64,000 nt of DNA from Lentisphaerota bacterium (GTDB lineage: Bacteria; Verrucomicrobiota; Kiritimatiellia; CAIQIC01; Lenti-01), in assembly GCA_012514035.1 (NCBI GenBank), contig JAAZBB010000003.1:23620-87619 (forward strand). Reading direction: 5' to 3'. The notes below the pieces were generated by a model. It was given only the letters and a program-made list of their open reading frames with translations. It had not been told where the DNA came from and ran no database searches. This document shows, piece after piece, positions 24,221 through 44,857 of this stretch (the first letter of the stretch is position 1; each line of letters starts with the position of its first letter). The position numbers and the translations under genes are program-made.

Positions 24221-24838
24221 TCAGTCTCCTTGTTCAAATAAATCCTGCCAGACGGCCCGGCTGCGGGCTTCCAGTTCTTCTAGCGTGCCATTGTTTTCGA
24301 TCACCCGGTCGGCCAGCGCCATTTTCCGGGCCACGGGCCATTGGCTGGCCATGCGCGCCCGGGCCTCTTCGACCGTGAGGCCACGGTGCATGAGCCGCTG
24401 CACCATCACCGGCTCATCGGAGGCCACGCAGACGACGGCGTCCCATTCCTGTTGCATGCCGGTTTCAAACAACAGGGGAATCAACGCCACGCCGGCGAGT
24501 CCTTCCCGCCGGATGCCCTCGGCCCAGACCCGCATGCGACGGATCACCGGGGGGTGGAGCATCTGGTTCAGGCGTTCCCGGGCGGCGGCGTCGGCAAACA
24601 CGATCGCGGCCAGGCGGGTGCGGTCGATGCCGCCATCCGGCGCCCAGACCCGCGGACCAAAGGCCTGTTGGATTTCTTCCACGCACACCCCGCCAGGAGC
24701 GATCAACCGGTGCGCAATTTCATCGGCATCGATCATTTCGGCGCCCCAGCGCCGCCAGAAACCGGCCACGGTGCTTTTGCCGCAGGCGATTCCGCCGGTT
24801 AAAGCCACGCAATACCCTTTTTTCATTTCTTTCACCAT
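24221..24838 (-). CDS. coaE: Dephospho-CoA kinase
   Basis: CoaE phosphorylates dephospho-CoA in the last step of coenzyme A synthesis. The P-loop [12 protein letters not shown] lies near the start and is followed by [19 protein letters not shown] and the LID segment [19 protein letters not shown] complete the family pattern. The 205 residues are normal. The ATG at 24838 overlaps the stop of the upstream membrane protein; a second ATG four codons on (24826) is possible. It is part of a tight minus-strand run with rho. Confidence 0.95.
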
Positions 24839-26898
24839 GGTCGGGCCGGCGCCAGGGGGGGCGCTTCGCTGATGGCGCCGCCCTGTTCATCCGCGCGAAA
24901 TCCGGCGGCCAGCAGGGCGCCCGCGAGCCGCAGAACCTCCTGGGCTTCCTCGTTCCCGGCGTCCATGCGCAGGGCATGGGCTGCGCGGGTCTGGGCCAGA
25001 TCCGCCTCGCCGCTTTCCAGGGCGGAGCGAGCCTCTTCCGCCAGGGTCTCCGCCAGCCGGGCGGCGACGGGACTTTGCGTCAGCCGGAAGACCCGGAACT
25101 TGCGATTGGCGAACTGCGGCTCGAAATGCCGCAATTCCTCCGGCCGCTGCTCGAACAGGCGGGCCGCGGCATTCGTTGACGGCTCCAGCGCGTCCACCAT
25201 GTAGCGCATCTGGAGGCCGGGCTGGATGTCGGAAAACTCGCCCATGGCATGCACGTAAATCGTGGCGCCGTGCGCCTCCATCCAGGTACGGAACTGATCT
25301 TCGTCGCCTTTGAACAGCACCTCGCCATAGTCCTGCACCCGGGCGCGGATTTCCGGGGCTTCAAACTTCGGGTGCAGCACAACGGGACAGCCGCCGTAGG
25401 TGGCGATGGCGGCGCTGATGCCGAAATTCGCCAGCACGGGCTCCGGGGCCGCGTATGTTCGTAAATGCTTCATCAAGGCTTCTGTTTCACCGGCATAGAC
25501 GTTGGGGCGTCCCCAGCGCAAAGGTTCCCGCCAGGTTTGGCCCGCTTCCACCAGCCAACCCAAGATCAACCCGGCCGCGACGATCCCGCGGCTCCACCGC
25601 CCGCTGGCCGCCAGCCACCGGCCGGCCCCCAGGCCGACCAGGCCGCAGGCAAATACCGCCAGCCAGGCATGAAACCGGAAAAACAGGATGAAAGCAGCCA
25701 ACGACGCCAGGAAATAGAAAAACAGGAGGGGAAAATCGGCGCAGGGTGGCCTGTCGCGTAATCTGGCCGGAATCAAACCCCAAACGGCCAGCGCCGTCAA
25801 CACCAAAAGCGCAGGAAACCACTCCCCCACCATGCGCCAGGAGGTGGAGTGCAGCGCCGGCGCCCACAGGATGCGCTGATCGAAGGTCAGCATGGCCGGA
25901 TCGTCCGGACGGATGTTGAAACACCGCAGCTTGGCCCACAGCAGGGAAGCGAAATGGCCGTAGGCCGGCACATAATGCCGGGACAGCGCGAGATACAGCA
26001 GCAACGGGGCAACGGCCAGCACCAGGCGGGTGGCCAACCGCCGGTGCTGCGCGACCGGCGCGCCGGCCAGCAGCAGCCCCCACCCCAGCGCCATGACCGG
26101 CGAGCCCGCAAAACCGTGCGCGGCCAGATAGGGATTGCGCAGTCCCGCCGCCAGCAGGACCGCCATCAGCGGCACTGCCACCGTCCACAATTCCTCTTTC
26201 GCCAGCCGTCCGCGCACGGCCTGGACCCACCCCCAGGCCATGAACAGCAGCAGATAAAACTGCACCAGGTCCCATGCGCAGAGCGCGAGCCCCGCCAGCA
26301 CGGCCGCGAGCCCGCCCGCCACCAGCCGGCCGCGCCAAGAACCGGCGCGGCGGCGGGCCCAGGTCACCGCCGCCAGATGCCCCAGCAGCAGCGGCAGCGC
26401 ATGGTTTTCGTGCGACAATTCCTGGCCCGTCGAACGCGCCACGGCGCTGATGGCCACGGCATAGAAGGCCGCCGCCCAGAAGCCGCCCGCGAGCCCCCCG
26501 CCCATCCATTTGACCCAGAAAAACATCCCGGGAATCGCCAGACAGAACCAGGCCAGATGGAGCCAGCGGATTTTTTCGGCAAGATTCAAGGTGCCGGGCC
26601 AAAGCTTCGCGGCGCGCACATAGGCGTACTCCGCGCCGACCGTATCCGTCACCTGGGGGTCCACGCCGTGCGGATACTGGATGCCCTGATCCAGCCGCGG
26701 CAGCTCCCCGTCGCGATACACCATCTGAATGCGCCGGAACGCCAGCGCGCTTTCCAGGGTGAACGGGATCGTACCGTCCGGCGTCAATACGCGCTGCGCG
26801 TCCAGCACGTGCCGACGGGTTCCGACCGCCAGCAACACCAGCAGAACCAGCAGCAGCGCCTGCAGCGGGATTTGGAAAGATTTGGCGGGAAGGGTCAC
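24832..26898 (-). CDS. STT3-like GT-C membrane protein (paralogue A)
   Basis: The 688-residue chain has about a dozen membrane spans and a soluble C-terminal domain. Near residue 75 it carries IQYPHGVDPQ, which resembles the YPxGxxxHW segment of archaeal AglB/STT3. Around residue 165, SHENHALPLLLGH sits where two paralogues in this window have LRPDHHG. I therefore read it as a divergent oligosaccharyltransferase-like GT-C protein, moving sugar from a lipid carrier outside the cytoplasm. The changed acidic/His motif makes activity less certain. It begins with GTG after a GGGTTC-type repeat and a phased palindrome array, and overlaps coaE by seven bases. Confidence 0.6.
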   Translation of the reverse strand: MTLPAKSFQIPLQALLLVLLVLLAVGTRRHVLDAQRVLTPDGTIPFTLESALAFRRIQMVYRDGELPRLDQGIQYPHGVDPQVTDTVGAEYAYVRAAKLWPGTLNLAEKIRWLHLAWFCLAIPGMFFWVKWMGGGLAGGFWAAAFYAVAISAVARSTGQELSHENHALPLLLGHLAAVTWARRRAGSWRGRLVAGGLAAVLAGLALCAWDLVQFYLLLFMAWGWVQAVRGRLAKEELWTVAVPLMAVLLAAGLRNPYLAAHGFAGSPVMALGWGLLLAGAPVAQHRRLATRLVLAVAPLLLYLALSRHYVPAYGHFASLLWAKLRCFNIRPDDPAMLTFDQRILWAPALHSTSWRMVGEWFPALLVLTALAVWGLIPARLRDRPPCADFPLLFFYFLASLAAFILFFRFHAWLAVFACGLVGLGAGRWLAASGRWSRGIVAAGLILGWLVEAGQTWREPLRWGRPNVYAGETEALMKHLRTYAAPEPVLANFGISAAIATYGGCPVVLHPKFEAPEIRARVQDYGEVLFKGDEDQFRTWMEAHGATIYVHAMGEFSDIQPGLQMRYMVDALEPSTNAAARLFEQRPEELRHFEPQFANRKFRVFRLTQSPVAARLAETLAEEARSALESGEADLAQTRAAHALRMDAGNEEAQEVLRLAGALLAAGFRADEQGGAISEAPPLAPARPW

Positions 26899-26901
26899 GG
26901 G

Positions 26902-26930
26902 AATCAGGGTTCAGGGTTCGGGGTTCGGGG
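26902..26930. repeat. Degenerate GGGTTCAGG-type repeat at the start of paralogue A
   Basis: The tract reads as four imperfect copies of CAGGGTT/CGGGGTT units and ends four bases before the GTG start of the downstream minus-strand gene. It lies on the gene side of the palindrome array at 26952-27052. Confidence 0.55.
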
Positions 26931-26951
26931 AAAACCGACTGCAGGCAAATA

Positions 26952-27052
26952 TTCCACACTCTGGAAAGCAGTTTTCCACGGTGTGGAAAAAAAGGCCGAT
27001 TTTTTCCACACAATGGAAAAAGTTTTCGGCGTTTTTCCACACAATGGAAAAA
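26952..27052. repeat. Array of four helically phased TTCCA-N5-TGGAA palindromes (array 1)
   Basis: Four units TTCCA-N5-TGGAA are centred at 26959, 26981, 27011 and 27042, giving spacings of 22, 30 and 31 bp. The N5 cores are CACTC, CGGTG, CACAA and CACAA. Flanking A and T runs extend three of the palindromes to 19-21 bp, and GTTTTCGGCG-like spacers follow units three and four. The array fills the gap between the 5'-3' exonuclease gene and the STT3-like gene it precedes. A second array with the same spacing lies at 36720-36821. Confidence 0.8.
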
Positions 27053-27078
27053 ATTTTCGGCGGATATTCATGAGGGGA

Positions 27079-27987
27079 TCAGAACAGGTTCATCTGCCCG
27101 TCGGCGGGGGGCCGGGGGGCGGATTTCAGCGCGGGGGGCGCGGCAGGTCCGGCATCGAGTTCGGCGGCGAACTGGTGCAGCTCGTATTGTTCAAAGAAGG
27201 TCTTGAGCTTGGCGGGATCGGGGGCGGGCGCGGGCAGTTCCGCCCACCCCGGGACGCCGGGCACGTTCTTATCCAGGGTCATCAGCTCTACGTTGGTTTC
27301 CGCGATGGCCTGCCCGGCCTGGACTTTGGCGCGGAGGGTTTCCGATTCGATCTCCCCGGCGCGGGCCAGGCATTCCGCAAGCGACCCGAACTGCGCGAGA
27401 AGCCTGGTGGCGGTCTTGGGTCCGACGCCGTTGATGCCGGGGATGTTGTCGGAGACATCGCCGATGAGGGCGAGCCAGTCCACAATCTGTTCCGGTTTGA
27501 CGCCGGTCTTGGCTTCGACGCCGGCCGGGCCCATTTCCTCGCTGGTCTTGGTGGGCGGGACGATGCGGATGCGGTCGCTCACAAGCTGCATCAGGTCCTT
27601 GTCGCTCGTAGCCAGGCGGACGGTGGCGCCGGCCAGCGCGGCGCGGTCCGCCAGCGTGGCGATGACATCGTCGGCCTCCTGGCCCTCGATGAGCAGCATC
27701 GGAATGCCGGCGGCGGCGAGGTACTCATTGATCAGTGGAAGCTGGCCGCGCAGGTCGTCGGGCATCGGCGCGCGCTGGGCCTTGTAGTCCGGGCATTTTT
27801 CGAGGCGGTGGGCGGGCGACCCGCCGTCGAAGGCCACGACCAGGCGGTCGGGATGCCACTGCTTCTGGAGCTGGCGGATCATGCGGATGAAGCCAAACAG
27901 GGCGTTGGTGGGCCGGCCGGCGCGGGTGGTGAGGCCGCGTACGGCGTAGAACGCACGGTAGGCGACCGCGGTGCCGTCCACGATCAC
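27079..27987 (-). CDS. Free-standing 5'-3' exonuclease with C-terminal clamp-binding motif
   Basis: The roughly 300-residue protein equals the N-terminal flap/5' nuclease domain of DNA polymerase I without the polymerase. IVDGTAVAYRAFYA, VVAFDGG, EGQEADDVIATLA and TSDKDLMQLV supply the metal-binding acids, and DNIPGINGVGPKTATRLL is the helix-hairpin-helix region. It probably removes RNA primers or flaps. The extreme C-terminus is QMNLF, which matches the sliding-clamp-binding consensus. I place the start at the GTG at 27987; the open frame runs back to a TTG at 28050, but that stretch is GGGTTC-type repeat sequence. Start choice is uncertain. Confidence 0.85.
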   Translation of the reverse strand: MIVDGTAVAYRAFYAVRGLTTRAGRPTNALFGFIRMIRQLQKQWHPDRLVVAFDGGSPAHRLEKCPDYKAQRAPMPDDLRGQLPLINEYLAAAGIPMLLIEGQEADDVIATLADRAALAGATVRLATSDKDLMQLVSDRIRIVPPTKTSEEMGPAGVEAKTGVKPEQIVDWLALIGDVSDNIPGINGVGPKTATRLLAQFGSLAECLARAGEIESETLRAKVQAGQAIAETNVELMTLDKNVPGVPGWAELPAPAPDPAKLKTFFEQYELHQFAAELDAGPAAPPALKSAPRPPADGQMNLF

Positions 27988-28000
27988 GACAGAATGGAGC

Positions 28001-28032
28001 AGTTCAGTGTTCAGAGGTCTGATATCAGGGGG
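28001..28032. repeat. Degenerate TTCAG-type repeat before the 5'-3' exonuclease
   Basis: The tract AGTTCAGTGTTCAGAGGTCTGATATCAGGG resembles the other GGGTTCAGG-type tracts of this window and lies just upstream of the exonuclease start. Confidence 0.4.
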
Positions 28033-28118
28033 TATGCCCAATACATTCAACCCGAATCACAGGCACGGACAGCGCGGCGGCGCCGTCCATGCCATTTTTC
28101 GTGTGGAAGGAAAATCGG

Positions 28119-35874: not shown

Positions 35875-36648
35875 TCAATCCAGACGGTTGAAAACCCGCG
35901 CGCGGGGGCGATGGGCCAGCAAGGCGCAAGTGCTCATTTCAGGCGCCAGCATGTCCGAGTCGGTCACGGTCACGCCGATGCGCCCGGCCTCGGTCCATTC
36001 GCAGATCCGGCGACTGAGGGTCATGTCCGGACAGGATGGATAGCCCGGTCCGAAACGCGCGCCGCGCTTGCCGCCCAGCGGGTCCAGCATCCGGCGGTGG
36101 GTCCATTCCGCCACCGCATCGGCGTATTCCGCCGCAAACCCGTTCCAGAAGAAGTATTCCTGATATTCCCCGGCCTCCTGCAGCCGGGTCATTTCCGCCG
36201 AGGCTTCCGGACTGCCAACCGTGACGGTAAAACAACCCAGGATGTCCCCTTCCCGCCGGAAGAAATCCGGAATGCTCAGTTGCTCGCCGATCCGCTGCCG
36301 GGGAAACACCAGCACGACCGGCTCCCCTCCCCCGGGCGGCGACACGATCAGGGTATCCCCGTCCGGCCGGCACGTGAGCCATGCCACGGCGGCCTGCGGG
36401 ACGAACAGGCGGCGCTTCAGGTTCTCCTTTTGCAGCCGCTCATAATGCCCCTGCGCCTCGCCTTCGAGGATCTGCCGGTACTCCCCTTCCGACAGGTTGC
36501 CCTTCTTGTAGCCCCAGCGCCCCACCAGCAGGGACATCCGTTCGATGAAAGGATTGACTTCCTCCATCGGCGGCTCCCAGACCTGCGCGCCCCGAAAGGG
36601 CGGCGTGAGGGGTTCATCGACGGGCAGCGATTGGGGTGCGGAGTTCAT
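35875..36648 (-). CDS. Methionine synthase reactivation (MetH activation) domain as a separate protein
   Basis: The 257-residue product corresponds to the C-terminal activation domain of cobalamin-dependent methionine synthase. That domain binds SAM and takes part in reductive remethylation of oxidised cobalamin. Family traits are the KGNLSEGEY region, AEYADAVAEWTH and RFGPGYPSCPDM, the counterpart of the canonical RxSxGYPACPD loop. It follows metH in the same direction but is separated from it by 208 bp with a palindrome array. Separate activation proteins are known in other bacteria. Confidence 0.87.
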   Translation of the reverse strand: MNSAPQSLPVDEPLTPPFRGAQVWEPPMEEVNPFIERMSLLVGRWGYKKGNLSEGEYRQILEGEAQGHYERLQKENLKRRLFVPQAAVAWLTCRPDGDTLIVSPPGGGEPVVLVFPRQRIGEQLSIPDFFRREGDILGCFTVTVGSPEASAEMTRLQEAGEYQEYFFWNGFAAEYADAVAEWTHRRMLDPLGGKRGARFGPGYPSCPDMTLSRRICEWTEAGRIGVTVTDSDMLAPEMSTCALLAHRPRARVFNRLD

Positions 36649-36650
36649 GG

Positions 36651-36675
36651 GGGTCAGGGTTCGGCGTTCAGGGGT
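36651..36675. repeat. Degenerate GGGTTC-type repeat at the start of the MetH activation gene
   Basis: GGGTCAGGGTTCGGCGTTCAGGGG lies two bases before the ATG at 36648, mirroring the layout at 26902-26930. It lies on the gene side of array 2. Confidence 0.5.
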
Positions 36676-36719: not shown

Positions 36720-36821
36720 TTTTCCACACTGTGGAAACATTTTTTCCATTGTGTGGAAAATCCGCGAAACTTTTTTCCATTGTGTGGAAAAAACAGCCCG
36801 ATTTTTCCACAGTGTGGAAAA
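36720..36821. repeat. Array of four helically phased TTCCA-N5-TGGAA palindromes (array 2)
   Basis: Four units are centred at 36729, 36751, 36782 and 36812, giving spacings of 22, 31 and 30 bp. The N5 cores are CACTG, TTGTG, TTGTG and CAGTG; the two TTGTG units are the reverse complement of the CACAA units of array 1. A and T runs flank every unit. The array fills the gap between the metH stop and the activation-domain gene. Confidence 0.8.
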
Positions 36822-36856: not shown

Positions 36857-39412
36857 TTACGTTGTTGACCTCGGCGGCGGCGAAGGCGCCAGCGTTCCGG
36901 TTTCCTCCAGCTCGCGGAAGGCCGTCAGGCTGTCGAAGGCATCCTTGCAGTAGCGCACCGGACCCGAATAGACCGGCTGGCAGTCCTGGCGCACGAACGG
37001 CTCGGTCAAGGCCGCCCCGCCCAGCAGCACGGGGATCTTCAGGCCGGCGGTCTCCAGCACCTTGAGATTCTCGCGCATGACCTGGACCGATTTCACCAGC
37101 AGGCCGCTCATCCCCAGCATGTCGGCCTGCGATTCCCGGACGGCCTCCAGCATCTTTTCAACCGGCACCTTCACGCCCAGGTTCACCACCCGGTAACCGT
37201 TGTTTGAGAGGATGATGTCCACCAGGTTCTTGCCGATATCGTGCACGTCGCCCGCCACGGTCCCGATCACCAGGGTGCCGGCGGCCTTGGCCTGCCCAGC
37301 CTTCAGGTGCGGCTTGATCAGGGCCACGGCCTTCTTCATCACCTCCGCCGACTTCAACACGAAGGGCAGTTGCAAAATGCCGTCGTTGAAGAGCCGGCCC
37401 ACTTCCTTCATCGCGGGAATCAAGTGGCCGTTGAGGACATCCTCCGCCGCCATTTTCGCCAGCAGCGCCGGAATGGCCGTTTCCAGCAGCGCCGCCTTGC
37501 CCTTGACCAGGGCCGCGGCGACCTGTTCCTCCGGCGTCTGCGCCGCGACGGCCGCGCCGGCCTCGGCTTCCGGCTCGGCCGCCTCGAAGTGCTGGATGAA
37601 CAGCTCCAGCGGATCGCCCTCCGCCACATCGTTGTCGAGCAGCTTTTCGGCGAGTTGGATCGCCGCCGGCGCCAGTTCCGTCAGCGGAACCAGCCCGGCG
37701 GTGTTGATGATGCACGCATCCATCCCCGCCTTGATGCAGCGGTCCAAAAACACCGTGTTGAGCACCTTGCGCGCCGCCGGCTTCAAGCCGAACGACACGT
37801 TCGACAGCCCCAGGATCGTCCGCACGCCGGGAAATTCCTGTTTGATCCGCCGGATGGCCGCGATGGTTTCCTTGGCCGCGTCGCGCAGCGCGCCGTCGCC
37901 GCTGCACACCGTGAAGGTCAGCGCGTCGATCAGCAGATCCCCCCGCCGCAGGCCGCGCTTTTCGCAGAACTCGATCAGGCGCTTGGCGATCTCCACCTTG
38001 CGGTCCGCCGTCATGGCCATGCCGGTTTCGTCGATGGTCAGCGCCACCAGCCCCGCGCCAAACTGCCGGGCCAGCGCTACGAGCTTTTCGGCCTTCTCCT
38101 CGCCGGACTCGAAATTGATCGAATTGACGAGCATCCGCCCGCCGTAGAGCTTCAGCGCCGCTTCGACCACGTCGAGCTGGGTACTGTCCACCATCAGCGG
38201 CAGTCGGCATTCGCGCGCCGCGCGCGCCACCAGCGTCGTCATGTCGGCGATTTCGTCGCGGCCCGCATAGGCCACGCTCAAATCCAGCACATGCGCCACG
38301 CCCTCGTCCTGCTCGACGAGCAGGTCGAACGCCGCATCGAGCTTCTCGGCCAGCAGCGTGTCGCGGAATTTCTTCGAACCGGTGGCATTGGCACGCTCGC
38401 CGACATACAGCGGCGGGGGGTCCTGCGTCAGATCCACCGGCGCGAACAGGCTGGTCACCTGCTCCGGCGCCTGCCCCTGGCGCGGCGGCGGGGCCTTGGC
38501 CTCCCCGAGCGCCTGCCGCAATTCACGGATATGCTCCGGCGTGGTTCCGCAGCAGCCGCCGATCACATGCAAGCCCACGGCCTTGGCCATGGGGGCAAAC
38601 ACCTGCGTGAATTCAGCCGGCCCCAGCGGATAATGCACTTGGCCGTCCTGCAGCGTCGGCAGGCCGGCATTCGGCATGCAGCCGATGAAACCGCGCCACT
38701 GGCGGGCGATGGCCTCCAGATGCCGCTGCATCGCCTCCGGCCCCGTCGCGCAGTTCATGCCCAGCACATCAATCGGATACGGCTCCAGCGAGGCCAGCAC
38801 CGCCCAGATGGACGAGCCCACCAGCAGCGTGCCGGTCGTTTCCACCGTCACCGACACGTAGAGCAGTTTGTCCGACCGCGACCCCAGCACCTGCATCGCT
38901 GCCGCAACCGCCGCCTTGATCTGCAACAGATCTTGACAGGTCTCGACGATGATTCCGTCCGCGCCGCCTTCGAGCAGCCCGCCCATCTGCTCCTGGCAGC
39001 CGCCGTAGAGATCGTCGAACGAAACTTGTCCCAGCGTCGCCAACTTCGTCCCCGGCCCCACCGAACCCAGTACGAAGCGCGGCCGGCCGTCCTTGGCCGC
39101 CGCCGCAACCGCCGCACCGCGGGCGATCTGCGCCGCCGCGTGTGAAATCTCCCGCGCTTTTTCCGCCAGCCCATATTCCCCGAGCGTGATCGGCGATGCC
39201 CCGAAGCTGTTCGTCTCCACCGCATCGCTGCCCGCCGCAAAGTAGGCCGCGTGGATGTCGCGGATAATCTCCGGCGCGGACAGGTTCAGCCACTCGTTGC
39301 AGCCTTCGTATTTTCCCCAGGCCGCGGCCCCCGGCTGCCGAAGTTGGATCTGGGTGCCCATGGCCCCGTCGGCCAGCAACAGATGCCGCGCTAGATATTC
39401 CTTGATGCCCAT
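36857..39412 (-). CDS. metH: Cobalamin-dependent methionine synthase lacking the activation domain
   Basis: MetH moves the methyl group of methyltetrahydrofolate to homocysteine through cobalamin. The 851-residue chain has three of the four usual modules. The homocysteine domain (1-310) has zinc ligands in GMNCATGP and IGGCCGTTPEHI. The pterin domain spans about 325-610. The cobalamin module (about 640-845) carries the lower-ligand motif DVHDIGKN near residue 722. The reactivation domain is missing from this chain and is encoded by the next gene. The ATG at 39412 gives a start normal for the family. Confidence 0.95.
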   Translation of the reverse strand: MGIKEYLARHLLLADGAMGTQIQLRQPGAAAWGKYEGCNEWLNLSAPEIIRDIHAAYFAAGSDAVETNSFGASPITLGEYGLAEKAREISHAAAQIARGAAVAAAAKDGRPRFVLGSVGPGTKLATLGQVSFDDLYGGCQEQMGGLLEGGADGIIVETCQDLLQIKAAVAAAMQVLGSRSDKLLYVSVTVETTGTLLVGSSIWAVLASLEPYPIDVLGMNCATGPEAMQRHLEAIARQWRGFIGCMPNAGLPTLQDGQVHYPLGPAEFTQVFAPMAKAVGLHVIGGCCGTTPEHIRELRQALGEAKAPPPRQGQAPEQVTSLFAPVDLTQDPPPLYVGERANATGSKKFRDTLLAEKLDAAFDLLVEQDEGVAHVLDLSVAYAGRDEIADMTTLVARAARECRLPLMVDSTQLDVVEAALKLYGGRMLVNSINFESGEEKAEKLVALARQFGAGLVALTIDETGMAMTADRKVEIAKRLIEFCEKRGLRRGDLLIDALTFTVCSGDGALRDAAKETIAAIRRIKQEFPGVRTILGLSNVSFGLKPAARKVLNTVFLDRCIKAGMDACIINTAGLVPLTELAPAAIQLAEKLLDNDVAEGDPLELFIQHFEAAEPEAEAGAAVAAQTPEEQVAAALVKGKAALLETAIPALLAKMAAEDVLNGHLIPAMKEVGRLFNDGILQLPFVLKSAEVMKKAVALIKPHLKAGQAKAAGTLVIGTVAGDVHDIGKNLVDIILSNNGYRVVNLGVKVPVEKMLEAVRESQADMLGMSGLLVKSVQVMRENLKVLETAGLKIPVLLGGAALTEPFVRQDCQPVYSGPVRYCKDAFDSLTAFRELEETGTLAPSPPPRSTT

Positions 39413-43836: not shown

Positions 43837-43866
43837 GCAAAAGTGGTCAGCCCGTGAATTGTAGCA
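43837..43866. repeat. Left 30-bp inverted repeat of the RAYT element
   Basis: Bases 43837-43866 match the reverse complement of 44903-44932 at 29 of 30 positions. The inner 22 bp (GTCAGCCCGTGAATTGTAGC core) are identical. The RAYT stop codon lies inside this repeat. Confidence 0.85.
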
Positions 43867-44857
43867 TAAATTTCTTGAGACATTCCGTGTCCTGGCCTGA
43901 AGCCCGTTCAAATGCGCCCACCGCTCGAGACACATTGGTTCGGTGCCCCATGCCCAGCCGGGCAGCCAACCACGCGACCGATACCGTGGTGTGCTTTTTC
44001 AGCAACCAACACACCGCCTGTTTCTCCAACTGAGTGCCTGTCATCCTGATGAGTTGGTCTTCACTCAATTCCAGGGCGGCGAGGATGTTCTCCAGCAAGC
44101 GTTCGGCTTCCGCCTCGTCATGGGCGCGACGTTGAGGCCCTCGTAAATTGTCGGAAGGCCGGTCAATCATTCCAGCTAATTGCTTCCGAAACGATTCGCC
44201 TCCGATAAACCAGCCCCGCTTCAACTGGTTCCCAATCTCATCGTAAACGGCATCCGGCGCGGTCTCGCGGTTTTCCTGCATCCGGGCGGCAATCAACCGA
44301 CGGTATTGGGATGCGACTCCCGGCGCGCGTTCCTCAAGCCCGCACGCGCGCAGGAGGCGGTCACGCCTCAGCCATGCCTGGCGCACCGGACCCGCCGACA
44401 CATAGTCCGGATAGCTGCTCCATACAAAGCTCTCCAGGGCAAAGGGCGTTCCGACTCCGGCCAAGCCTGCCCGAAACGGATTGAGGTGGATATACTGCCC
44501 CACTTCCCTTAAATAGGACGCATCCTTTCCCGCTTCGACCGGCAGCGCCTTGTAGCGCCCCTGAAACAAGTGCCCTCGGCTCCGAGTCATGGCGTTGAAA
44601 CGCTGGGTGTACGTCCCCAGAAACCATTTCATGCCCGCCACAAGATTGGGTTCAGGAGTTTCCAGCAGCAAGTGGTAGTGATTCGCCATCAACACATAGG
44701 CGTGAATGATCCAACCGGTTTGCTCACAAACCTCTTTGACTGTGGCGAGAAATAACCTGCGCCCGTCGTCCCCCAGAAAAATATCCCGTCCGTCATTGCC
44801 GCGACTCATCGCGTGGTACACGGCCCCCGGATATTCATGTCGCACAGCTCGTGGCAT
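43847..44857 (-). CDS. REP-associated tyrosine transposase (RAYT, Y1 family)
   Basis: The 336-residue protein has the Y1/HUH single-strand transposase pattern. YPGAVYHAMSRGN lies at the N-terminus. The metal-binding HUH appears as VLMANHYHLLLETP at about residues 56-69, and the catalytic Tyr probably as QYIHLNPFRAGL near residue 122. A C-terminal DnaA/Chromobox-like helix-turn-helix region (about 270-310) is typical of larger RAYTs. The gene is framed by 30-bp inverted repeats, one overlapping its stop codon. RAYTs are thought to mobilise or maintain short palindromic repeats. Confidence 0.9.
   Translation of the reverse strand: MPRAVRHEYPGAVYHAMSRGNDGRDIFLGDDGRRLFLATVKEVCEQTGWIIHAYVLMANHYHLLLETPEPNLVAGMKWFLGTYTQRFNAMTRSRGHLFQGRYKALPVEAGKDASYLREVGQYIHLNPFRAGLAGVGTPFALESFVWSSYPDYVSAGPVRQAWLRRDRLLRACGLEERAPGVASQYRRLIAARMQENRETAPDAVYDEIGNQLKRGWFIGGESFRKQLAGMIDRPSDNLRGPQRRAHDEAEAERLLENILAALELSEDQLIRMTGTQLEKQAVCWLLKKHTTVSVAWLAARLGMGHRTNVSRAVGAFERASGQDTECLKKFMLQFTG

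Follow-up and report, generated by a model that had tools for sequence, protein, structure and literature searches.

BOX elements of pneumococcus are mosaics assembled from short modules, the middle one of which is repeated, and Rickettsia palindromic elements are palindromic repeats which are tolerated in frame inside genes. Sites placed at fixed helical intervals for a multimerising protein are known from sopC/ParB centromeres and from the ends of Tn7 and Mu. GTAG- and CGTC-tagged repeats have also been described, in a source which gives O. terrae as an enriched verrucomicrobium (PMC3733652) and whose main text has neither TTCCA nor TGGAA at the start of a word. The BrickBuilt MITE of Porphyromonas gingivalis is a dispersed array of 23-bp units, AGAYCATARTATCCTCTCRTRTG (PMC4596501); the main text of that paper contains no TTCCA, TGGAA, or "palindrom".

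Here we analyzed arrays of the palindrome TTCCA-N5-TGGAA in a 64-kb window (the whole stretch of DNA studied), in the rest of its source genome, and in related organisms. These arrays resemble REP/BIME sequences in being dispersed intergenic palindromic mosaics that are homogenized in each genome. They differ in that no conserved tetranucleotide (GTAG or CGTC tag) lies outside the array in 31 core-oriented source-genome copies, in that they do not flank RAYT-type genes, and in their helical phasing and G/C dyad base. BOX elements are likewise modular mosaics, but their unit length, sequence, and helical spacing, as these elements are generally described, are different. The arrays share with Rickettsia palindromic elements an in-frame presence in a gene (NTP_transferase, 11 of 13 relatives), whereas they are mostly intergenic and are built from numerous short, phased units, and the unit count at a given address varies. 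Unlike sopC/ParB or Tn7/Mu sites, which belong to one locus or one transposon pair, there are tens to hundreds of arrays per genome. The BrickBuilt unit AGAYCATARTATCCTCTCRTRTG is unrelated, and the consensus given for it lacks TTCCA and TGGAA (PMC4596501). Compared with MITEs, the outer array units are palindromic at both ends, empty sites are too diverged to show duplications, and no parent transposase was found. The original prediction knew of no described family with such geometry; none was found in the literature searched, which had few subscription papers. The array is one copy of a dispersed palindromic repeat, and on balance we lean slightly towards the view that it acts as a cooperative docking array for putative DNA-binding protein dimers.

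Sequence and distribution of the repeat

The window contains two arrays (table 1), 9.7 kb apart, which hold all eight of its exact TTCCA-N5-TGGAA matches; 100 shuffled windows gave a mean of 0.01 matches and a maximum of 1. The four palindromes originally noted for array 1 are exact matches at all four positions and at the stated spacings. None of the eight half-sites of this array departs by more than 0.14 turn from a whole multiple of 10.5 bp, in agreement with the proposal that the units share one face of the helix, and the phasing is general across the family. The excess over control sequence extends to the whole source genome, which has 221 sites (39 pairs of them at 22 bp) versus one for the reversed pattern.

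Table 1. Features of the two window arrays and their neighborhood, with loci of in-gene arrays and copies of the 104-nt module
Feature	Position	Strand	Sequence	Remarks
Array 1	26952-27049			Four exact units; spacings 22, 30, 31 bp
Array 1 unit W	26952..26966	.	TTCCACACTCTGGAA	Exact match; centre 26959
Array 1 unit X	26974..26988	.	TTCCACGGTGTGGAA	22 bp on; centre 26981
Array 1 first core unit C	27004..27018	.	TTCCACACAATGGAA	30 bp on; centre 27011
Array 1 second core unit C	27035..27049	.	TTCCACACAATGGAA	31 bp on; centre 27042
Array 2	36722-36819			Four exact units; spacings 22, 31, 30 bp; opposite orientation to array 1
Array 2 unit Y	36722..36736	.	TTCCACACTGTGGAA	
Array 2 core unit C, reversed	36744..36758	.	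TTCCATTGTGTGGAA	
Array 2 core unit C, reversed	36775..36789	.	TTCCATTGTGTGGAA	
Array 2 unit X	36805..36819	.	TTCCACAGTGTGGAA	
Dpy19/GT-C-like membrane protein gene	24832..26898	-		Pfam PF10034, E 8.8e-12; start 53 bp from array 1
5'-3' exonuclease gene	27079..28050	-		Pfam PF02739, PF01367; stop 29 bp from array 1
Separate methionine synthase activation domain gene	35875..36648	-		Pfam PF02965; flanks array 2
B12-dependent methionine synthase without activation domain	36857..39412	-		Pfam PF02574, PF00809, PF02607, PF02310; flanks array 2
In-gene array, source genome	L010 1440-1537			
In-gene arrays, other loci	L316, L317, L318, L319, L321, L323, L324, L325, L326, L327			
104-nt module copies	L119 3838-3942; L286 1394-1498; L323 1868-1972; L309 10425-10538; L075 2009-2113; others			

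The gene downstream of array 1, originally described as STT3-like, has a Pfam match to Dpy19, a GT-C relative of STT3, and not to STT3 itself. Array 2 lies between the two genes of a split methionine synthase, in which the activation domain forms its own downstream gene. Short GGGTTCAGGGTTC-like repeats were observed beside both window arrays (26907-26930 and 36645-36672); by a simple pattern, they occur within 150 bp of only 3 of 34 source-genome arrays.

Extension of the motif from 568 sites in Kiritimatiellae-type loci gave TTTTCCA-NN-(C/G)-NN-TGGAAAA. The five central bases are not free: once duplicates are removed, 514 of 523 sites from loci whose baits leave the middle (dyad) base unspecified have C or G there, although some stretches behind this figure were chosen near pairs listed by a pattern requiring C or G. 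The proportions were 395/401 in loci baited only by N5 pairs and 134/137 in other stretches; a figure of 572/578 includes loci from baits which fix the base.

In a sample of 288 genomes of the phylum, paired sites were found in 38: every one of the 12 genomes of the window's order has them, as do 25 of the 85 others of its class and 1 of the 191 remaining genomes. The reversed-pattern control was found in none of the 288. A scan of named genomes for 22-bp pairs gave at least 106 stretches, among them 17 labeled Prevotella/Prevotellaceae and one labeled Proteobacteria, which were excluded from the Kiritimatiellae motif, spacing, and context counts. The remaining labels among the matches listed were Kiritimatiellae, Kiritimatiellales, Pontiellaceae, Verrucomicrobia, Lentisphaerae, Opitutia, and plain uncultured bacterium. 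Pontiella sulfatireligans F21 has 3 pairs with 22-bp spacing and Pontiellaceae bacterium B12227 has 14. G011, from the same family as the source genome, is identical over 8,000 bases to JAFXQI (Kiritimatiellae bacterium RGIG6649).

The Prevotella-labeled loci (L055, L056, L083, L093, L106, L128, L133, L149, and others) contain arrays of a like palindrome, TTCCA-NN-S-NN-TGGAA. This palindrome has C or G at its centre in 55 of 58 sites, and CA or TA comes directly after it in 40 of 58. Between 1 and 30 pairs are present in each of 11 Prevotella/Prevotellaceae-labeled genomes, nearly all at 22 bp, which is also the bait spacing. A shared reader or convergence is possible for these arrays.

Helical spacing and half-site variants

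Spacing was expected to be conserved in other copies of the array, and the 34 deduplicated source-genome arrays, fetched with a 22-bp or a 30-32-bp bait pair, use only 22 bp (26 cases), 30 bp (33), and 31 bp (35). Alignment of 31 copies on the core revealed a common order, W-22-X-30-C-31-C-22-Y, whose outer units are often missing or decayed. In these copies C is TTCCACACAATGGAA, X is TTCCAC-(three variable bases)-GTGGAA, the spacer ends are A/T-rich, and the flanks are unique. X was exact in 31 of 32 source-genome arrays chosen only by the C-C core. The two C units of the core always point in the same direction even though either one is close to symmetric, and a plain dimer site does not account for this. 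The W-X-C-C-Y order is not general, and arrays of congeners are built differently: among 22 arrays from four congeners, only 4 had an exact X 29-32 bp before the core.

Two further observations concern the array DNA itself. In three source-genome arrays (L013, L034, and L039), a GC-rich TCCGGC...GGCCGGACC palindrome is spliced into or beside a TTCCA unit, with one base different in L039. DNA bending by phased A-tracts was considered and rejected, as the T and A tracts are about 16 bp apart and would be out of phase.

The main rival to a docking array is a dispersed repeat that is purely selfish, in the manner of BIME, BOX, MITE, or Rickettsia palindromic elements, for which the palindromes would be ends or hairpins used in spreading and no host protein would be needed. 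We regard this as somewhat unlikely, but several features of the family favor it. The source genome holds 31 copies with a common order and unique flanks, and their spacers are related (core identity of 0.62 vs. 0.38 shuffled for 33 spacers of 31-bp pairs); these arrays are thus copies of one another, and part of the regular spacing there is inherited. Site numbers in the window's genus range from 29 to 310 per genome (seven genomes, two of which are less than 70% complete), which also fits a selfish repeat.

Inheritance hardly explains the spacing in genus g8 (G017, G020, and G025), whose spacers are unrelated (two sets, of 8 and 17 spacers, with identities of 0.38 and 0.40 vs. 0.36 and 0.38 shuffled) and whose pairs are nonetheless 31 or 32 bp apart, a point against a purely selfish origin. 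When spacings of 21-33 bp were allowed, the 89 plus-strand pairs listed from 12 genomes fell at 21 (1), 22 (22), 30 (7), 31 (39), and 32 bp (20); none of those listed lay at 23-29 or 33 bp. After removal of one 22-bp or 31-bp bait pair per array, 269 spacings from 161 arrays gave R = 0.86 at 10.5 bp, with a best period of 10.35. The 26 distinct spacing values alone gave R = 0.71 at 10.5 bp, and 61 spacings in relatives' stretches gave R = 0.93. Judged from these sequence comparisons, phasing is a constraint in its own right.

Half-sites have changed in two genomes (loci L351, L353, L358, L359, L363, and L370). The stretches of G004 that were read contain 19 standard sites, 9 hybrids (TTTCCAC/TTTACGT), and 1 switched site, and those of G006 contain no standard site and four switched ones (TTTACGT-N3-ACGTAAA), although G006 still has 29 standard sites genome-wide. 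No hybrid half-sites were found in the stretches of G000, G001, and G002. Nine close pairs hold a hybrid, six of them at 31 bp, two at 22 bp, and one at 19 bp; the four switched sites of G006 have no recognized neighbor within 80 bp. Because a hybrid cannot form a full hairpin, a cruciform or an RNA stem is a poorer match to these sites than a two-fold protein would be, and the fact that hybrids break hairpin pairing and mostly keep the spacing also counts against a purely selfish repeat. Complementarity at positions 7/9 is not enriched, either in X units of the source genome (24 observed vs. 31.5 expected) or in A..T clades (38 vs. 49.9), which speaks against a hairpin; at positions 6/10 it exceeds expectation (294 vs. 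214 in 578 pooled sites), a point in the opposite direction. Variant half-sites and spacing together argue for reading by a dimer, not for a hairpin. The half-sites look separately read, and we infer that a protein dimer recognizes the motif.

The half-site sequences also bear on the idea that the arrays are DnaA-box clusters which titrate DnaA. The DnaA box is TTWTNCACA, which TTTTCCACA resembles, and the commonest half-site of the source genome is TTCCACA (136 of 256), with TTCCACG third (39). However, there is no conservation of CACA: each core unit has TTCCATTG as its second half, TTCCAAT or TTCCAAG takes its place in other clades, and G006 carries TTTACGT. Titration of DnaA is therefore extremely unlikely.

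Genomic context and turnover of the arrays

Genes around the arrays were called by a simple codon-usage script, and single sites and arrays near locus ends were excluded from the context counts of the source genome and the named relatives. The 90 arrays of named relatives comprise 49 in codirectional, 21 in divergent, and 12 in convergent gaps, 4 at edges, and 4 in genes, and the 82 classified ones were distributed like array-free gaps of at least 80 bp (89/35/24 codirectional/divergent/convergent; p 0.92). In relatives' stretches, 50 intergenic clusters (27/14/9, with 4 more in genes) were compared with 138/42/36 array-free gaps (p 0.35). In the source genome, 33 arrays (21/10/2) leaned towards divergent gaps when compared with the gaps of the window (37/5/5; p 0.08). 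The core points the same way as the gene in 18 cases and the opposite way in 20, so the two directions are independent, and source-genome arrays showed no fixed distance to gene starts. Annotated flanking genes are mixed (PheS, DciA, Ddl, lipid A acyltransferase, DUF58, and others), and clustering of 249 adjacent and 491 other proteins revealed no family with more than three array-adjacent members. Thus, most arrays lie between genes and show no significant preference for promoters or terminators.

These data make a gene-specific operator array, bound by a transcription factor upstream of particular genes, improbable. Such a role would suit the intergenic position of most arrays, the divergent lean in the source genome, and the conservation of some addresses. 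Against it stand the absence of gap-type bias in the two sets of relatives, the lack of a fixed start distance or strand preference, the mixed flanking genes, one array in a coding region, and the finding of no sigma-70-like promoter at array 1. The cooperative operator of the original prediction is accordingly not upheld in respect of the downstream gene, and cooperative dimer binding remains the best reading of the motif and its phasing.

An RNA-level element (a hairpin terminator, a 3'-end stabilizer, or a riboregulator) is very unlikely as well. Array 1 RNA folds with z -6.9 relative to shuffles, as would any palindrome array, and in 16 of 27 codirectional gaps of relatives' stretches the array is closer to the stop of the upstream gene. 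On the other hand, positions 26600-27300 contain no terminator-like site (a GC-containing stem directly followed by a T run), no Rfam match was obtained in the window at the gathering score, divergent gaps are not avoided, and an array forms part of a nucleotidyltransferase open reading frame. RNAalifold found almost no covariation in 28 source-genome arrays, whose core units were invariant by choice.

The nucleotidyltransferase gene (PF00483, NTP_transferase) carries this internal array in 11 of 13 readable relatives, 17 family genomes having been searched (table 1). With 1 to 7 exact units, the array lies between NGDSL...D and ...APIxxxGRYG. The genes of G011 and G013 have no array at that position, and the gene of G012 is split by the assembly. 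All ten checkable array linkers are multiples of three (96-252 bp); eight are without a stop, and for those of G003 and G015 (126 bp each, minus-strand coordinates) the matches report none inside. Arrays are nearly stop-free in general, with 5.91 of six frames open in 33 source-genome arrays, compared with 2.67 when shuffled and 4.77 when sites were fixed and spacer cores shuffled. Freedom from stops, together with an array in frame inside a gene, favors the selfish repeat.

Addresses are partly shared between organisms. For genes adjoining source-genome arrays, named loci supplied 17 homologues, and 15 of these also adjoin an array (4.9 expected); for homologues of non-adjacent source-genome genes the figure is 2 of 14. 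This count compares the source genome with named loci only, and since the 15 come from 10 of 12 source-genome loci, they are not all independent. It was preferred because the raw adjacent-adjacent excess is inflated by short source-genome loci and by the identity of G001 with CALMBO and of G002 with SABN (100% identical proteins). Addresses partly kept across genera speak against a purely selfish repeat. At a shared address the array content is rewritten, with differences in unit number, centre, and sometimes orientation. Core centres vary by genome within the limits of the bait CNCNA (mostly CACAA in G000, CGCAA in G002, and CGCCA in G003), and such genome-specific centres again fit a selfish repeat.

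Both gaps that hold the window arrays vary among congeners. At the xni gap, G000, G003, G012, and G016 have an array or a single site; the fetched flanks of G001, G002, G004, G005, G006, G008, G009, G010, G011, and G013 contain no exact site. The metH gap has sites in G000, G002, and G015 and lacks them in G001, G004, G006, G009, G010, and G013; other genomes are cut, partial, or weakly matching at these gaps. Presence and absence of this kind favors a selfish repeat, and as the array is missing in several congeners at both gaps, no single copy is essential. In a block syntenic with G001, two G000 arrays and one G001 array occupy different gaps. A composite transposon between the window arrays was rejected: the block keeps its synteny in G001, which has neither array there, and in G002, which has only the metH array.

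These comparisons show that arrays turn over between congeners, are homogenized within each genome, and keep part of their addresses between genera. The location, turnover, and homogenization of the arrays, together with the in-gene copy, render a gene-specific operator or terminator unlikely. The structured mobile repeat offered as the second option of the original prediction is borne out in so far as the arrays are dispersed, homogenized by lineage, and subject to turnover, but no mobilizing enzyme was found and the RAYT-type transposases of the source genome are not linked to them.

Companion elements and possible role

A folded module of 104 positions, TAGCCGAGTGCCGAG...GAGCGGCAA, was observed in association with the arrays. 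A 14-base pattern matched it in 10 of 17 family genomes and had no match in the source genome; the single match in G008 (L354) resembles coding sequence unrelated to the module, and nine genomes is the safer count. In 28 distinct matches (L354 included), a palindrome with at most one mismatch lies to the left in 21, to the right in 17, and on both sides in 15; several matches not bracketed on both sides lie in G004 and G006. A covariance model located three further copies, in loci most of which had been fetched for their arrays; these copies are also bracketed by palindromes, in one case with a mismatch. In an alignment of twenty copies (2 of 22 full copies being left out), both partners change in eight base pairs, and there are 24 such cells compared with 3.6 in shuffled alignments, the structure counted having been derived from nearly the same rows. 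There was no Rfam match at the gathering score in five module-bearing loci and no tRNA in four. The module is possibly a new structured RNA or a folded mobile piece, and the fact that arrays often bracket it favors a selfish repeat.

RAYT-type transposases were considered as partners of the arrays. The source genome has 17 Y1_Tnp matches, 15 of them over the Pfam cut-off, whose loci hold two TTCCA sites (one array) in 38.5 kb. Seven of the 17 loci have inverted ends of the GGGGTCAG-N-CC kind or of the GGTCAG form. One of the 17, a RAYT-type Y1 transposase gene in the window (43847-44857), is flanked by a 23-bp perfect inverted repeat of this kind, GGTCAGCCCGTGAATTGTAGCAT. NCBIfam REP_Tyr_transpos matches to the RAYT-type genes were below the cut-off. 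Thus, the RAYT transposases of the source genome are probably not the route of array spread, and the lack of any enzyme found with matching ends counts against a purely selfish repeat.

We favor a probable cooperative docking array carried by a dispersed repeat. On the repeat family, TTTTCCA-NN-(C/G)-NN-TGGAAAA set at two- and three-turn intervals, putative dimers would bind next to one another along a single helical face, and neighboring dimers would touch. Their role would be a general one, in chromosome organization or in keeping the repeat itself, rather than in control of adjacent genes. The family itself spreads and is homogenized inside each genome. A docking array and a selfish repeat may both be true at once. 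More tentatively, and with some doubt, the Kiritimatiellae might possess a chromatin-like system in which a class-wide dimer polymerizes along one helical face of the arrays at tens to hundreds of chromosomal addresses, half-site specificity having drifted and, in one lineage, switched, and in which semi-selfish arrays survive within a coding gene and bracket the folded module.

If the arrays are selfish, they would represent a class of repeat in which helical phase is preserved rather than the sequence of the spacers, and which an enzyme gene can carry within its reading frame. If instead a protein reads them, a whole bacterial order would have a chromosome-scale binding system of which no description was found in the literature searched. 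The standard, hybrid, and switched half-sites among congeners would then be a natural experiment in specificity change, and the arrays would offer a ready test of cooperative, phase-dependent binding.
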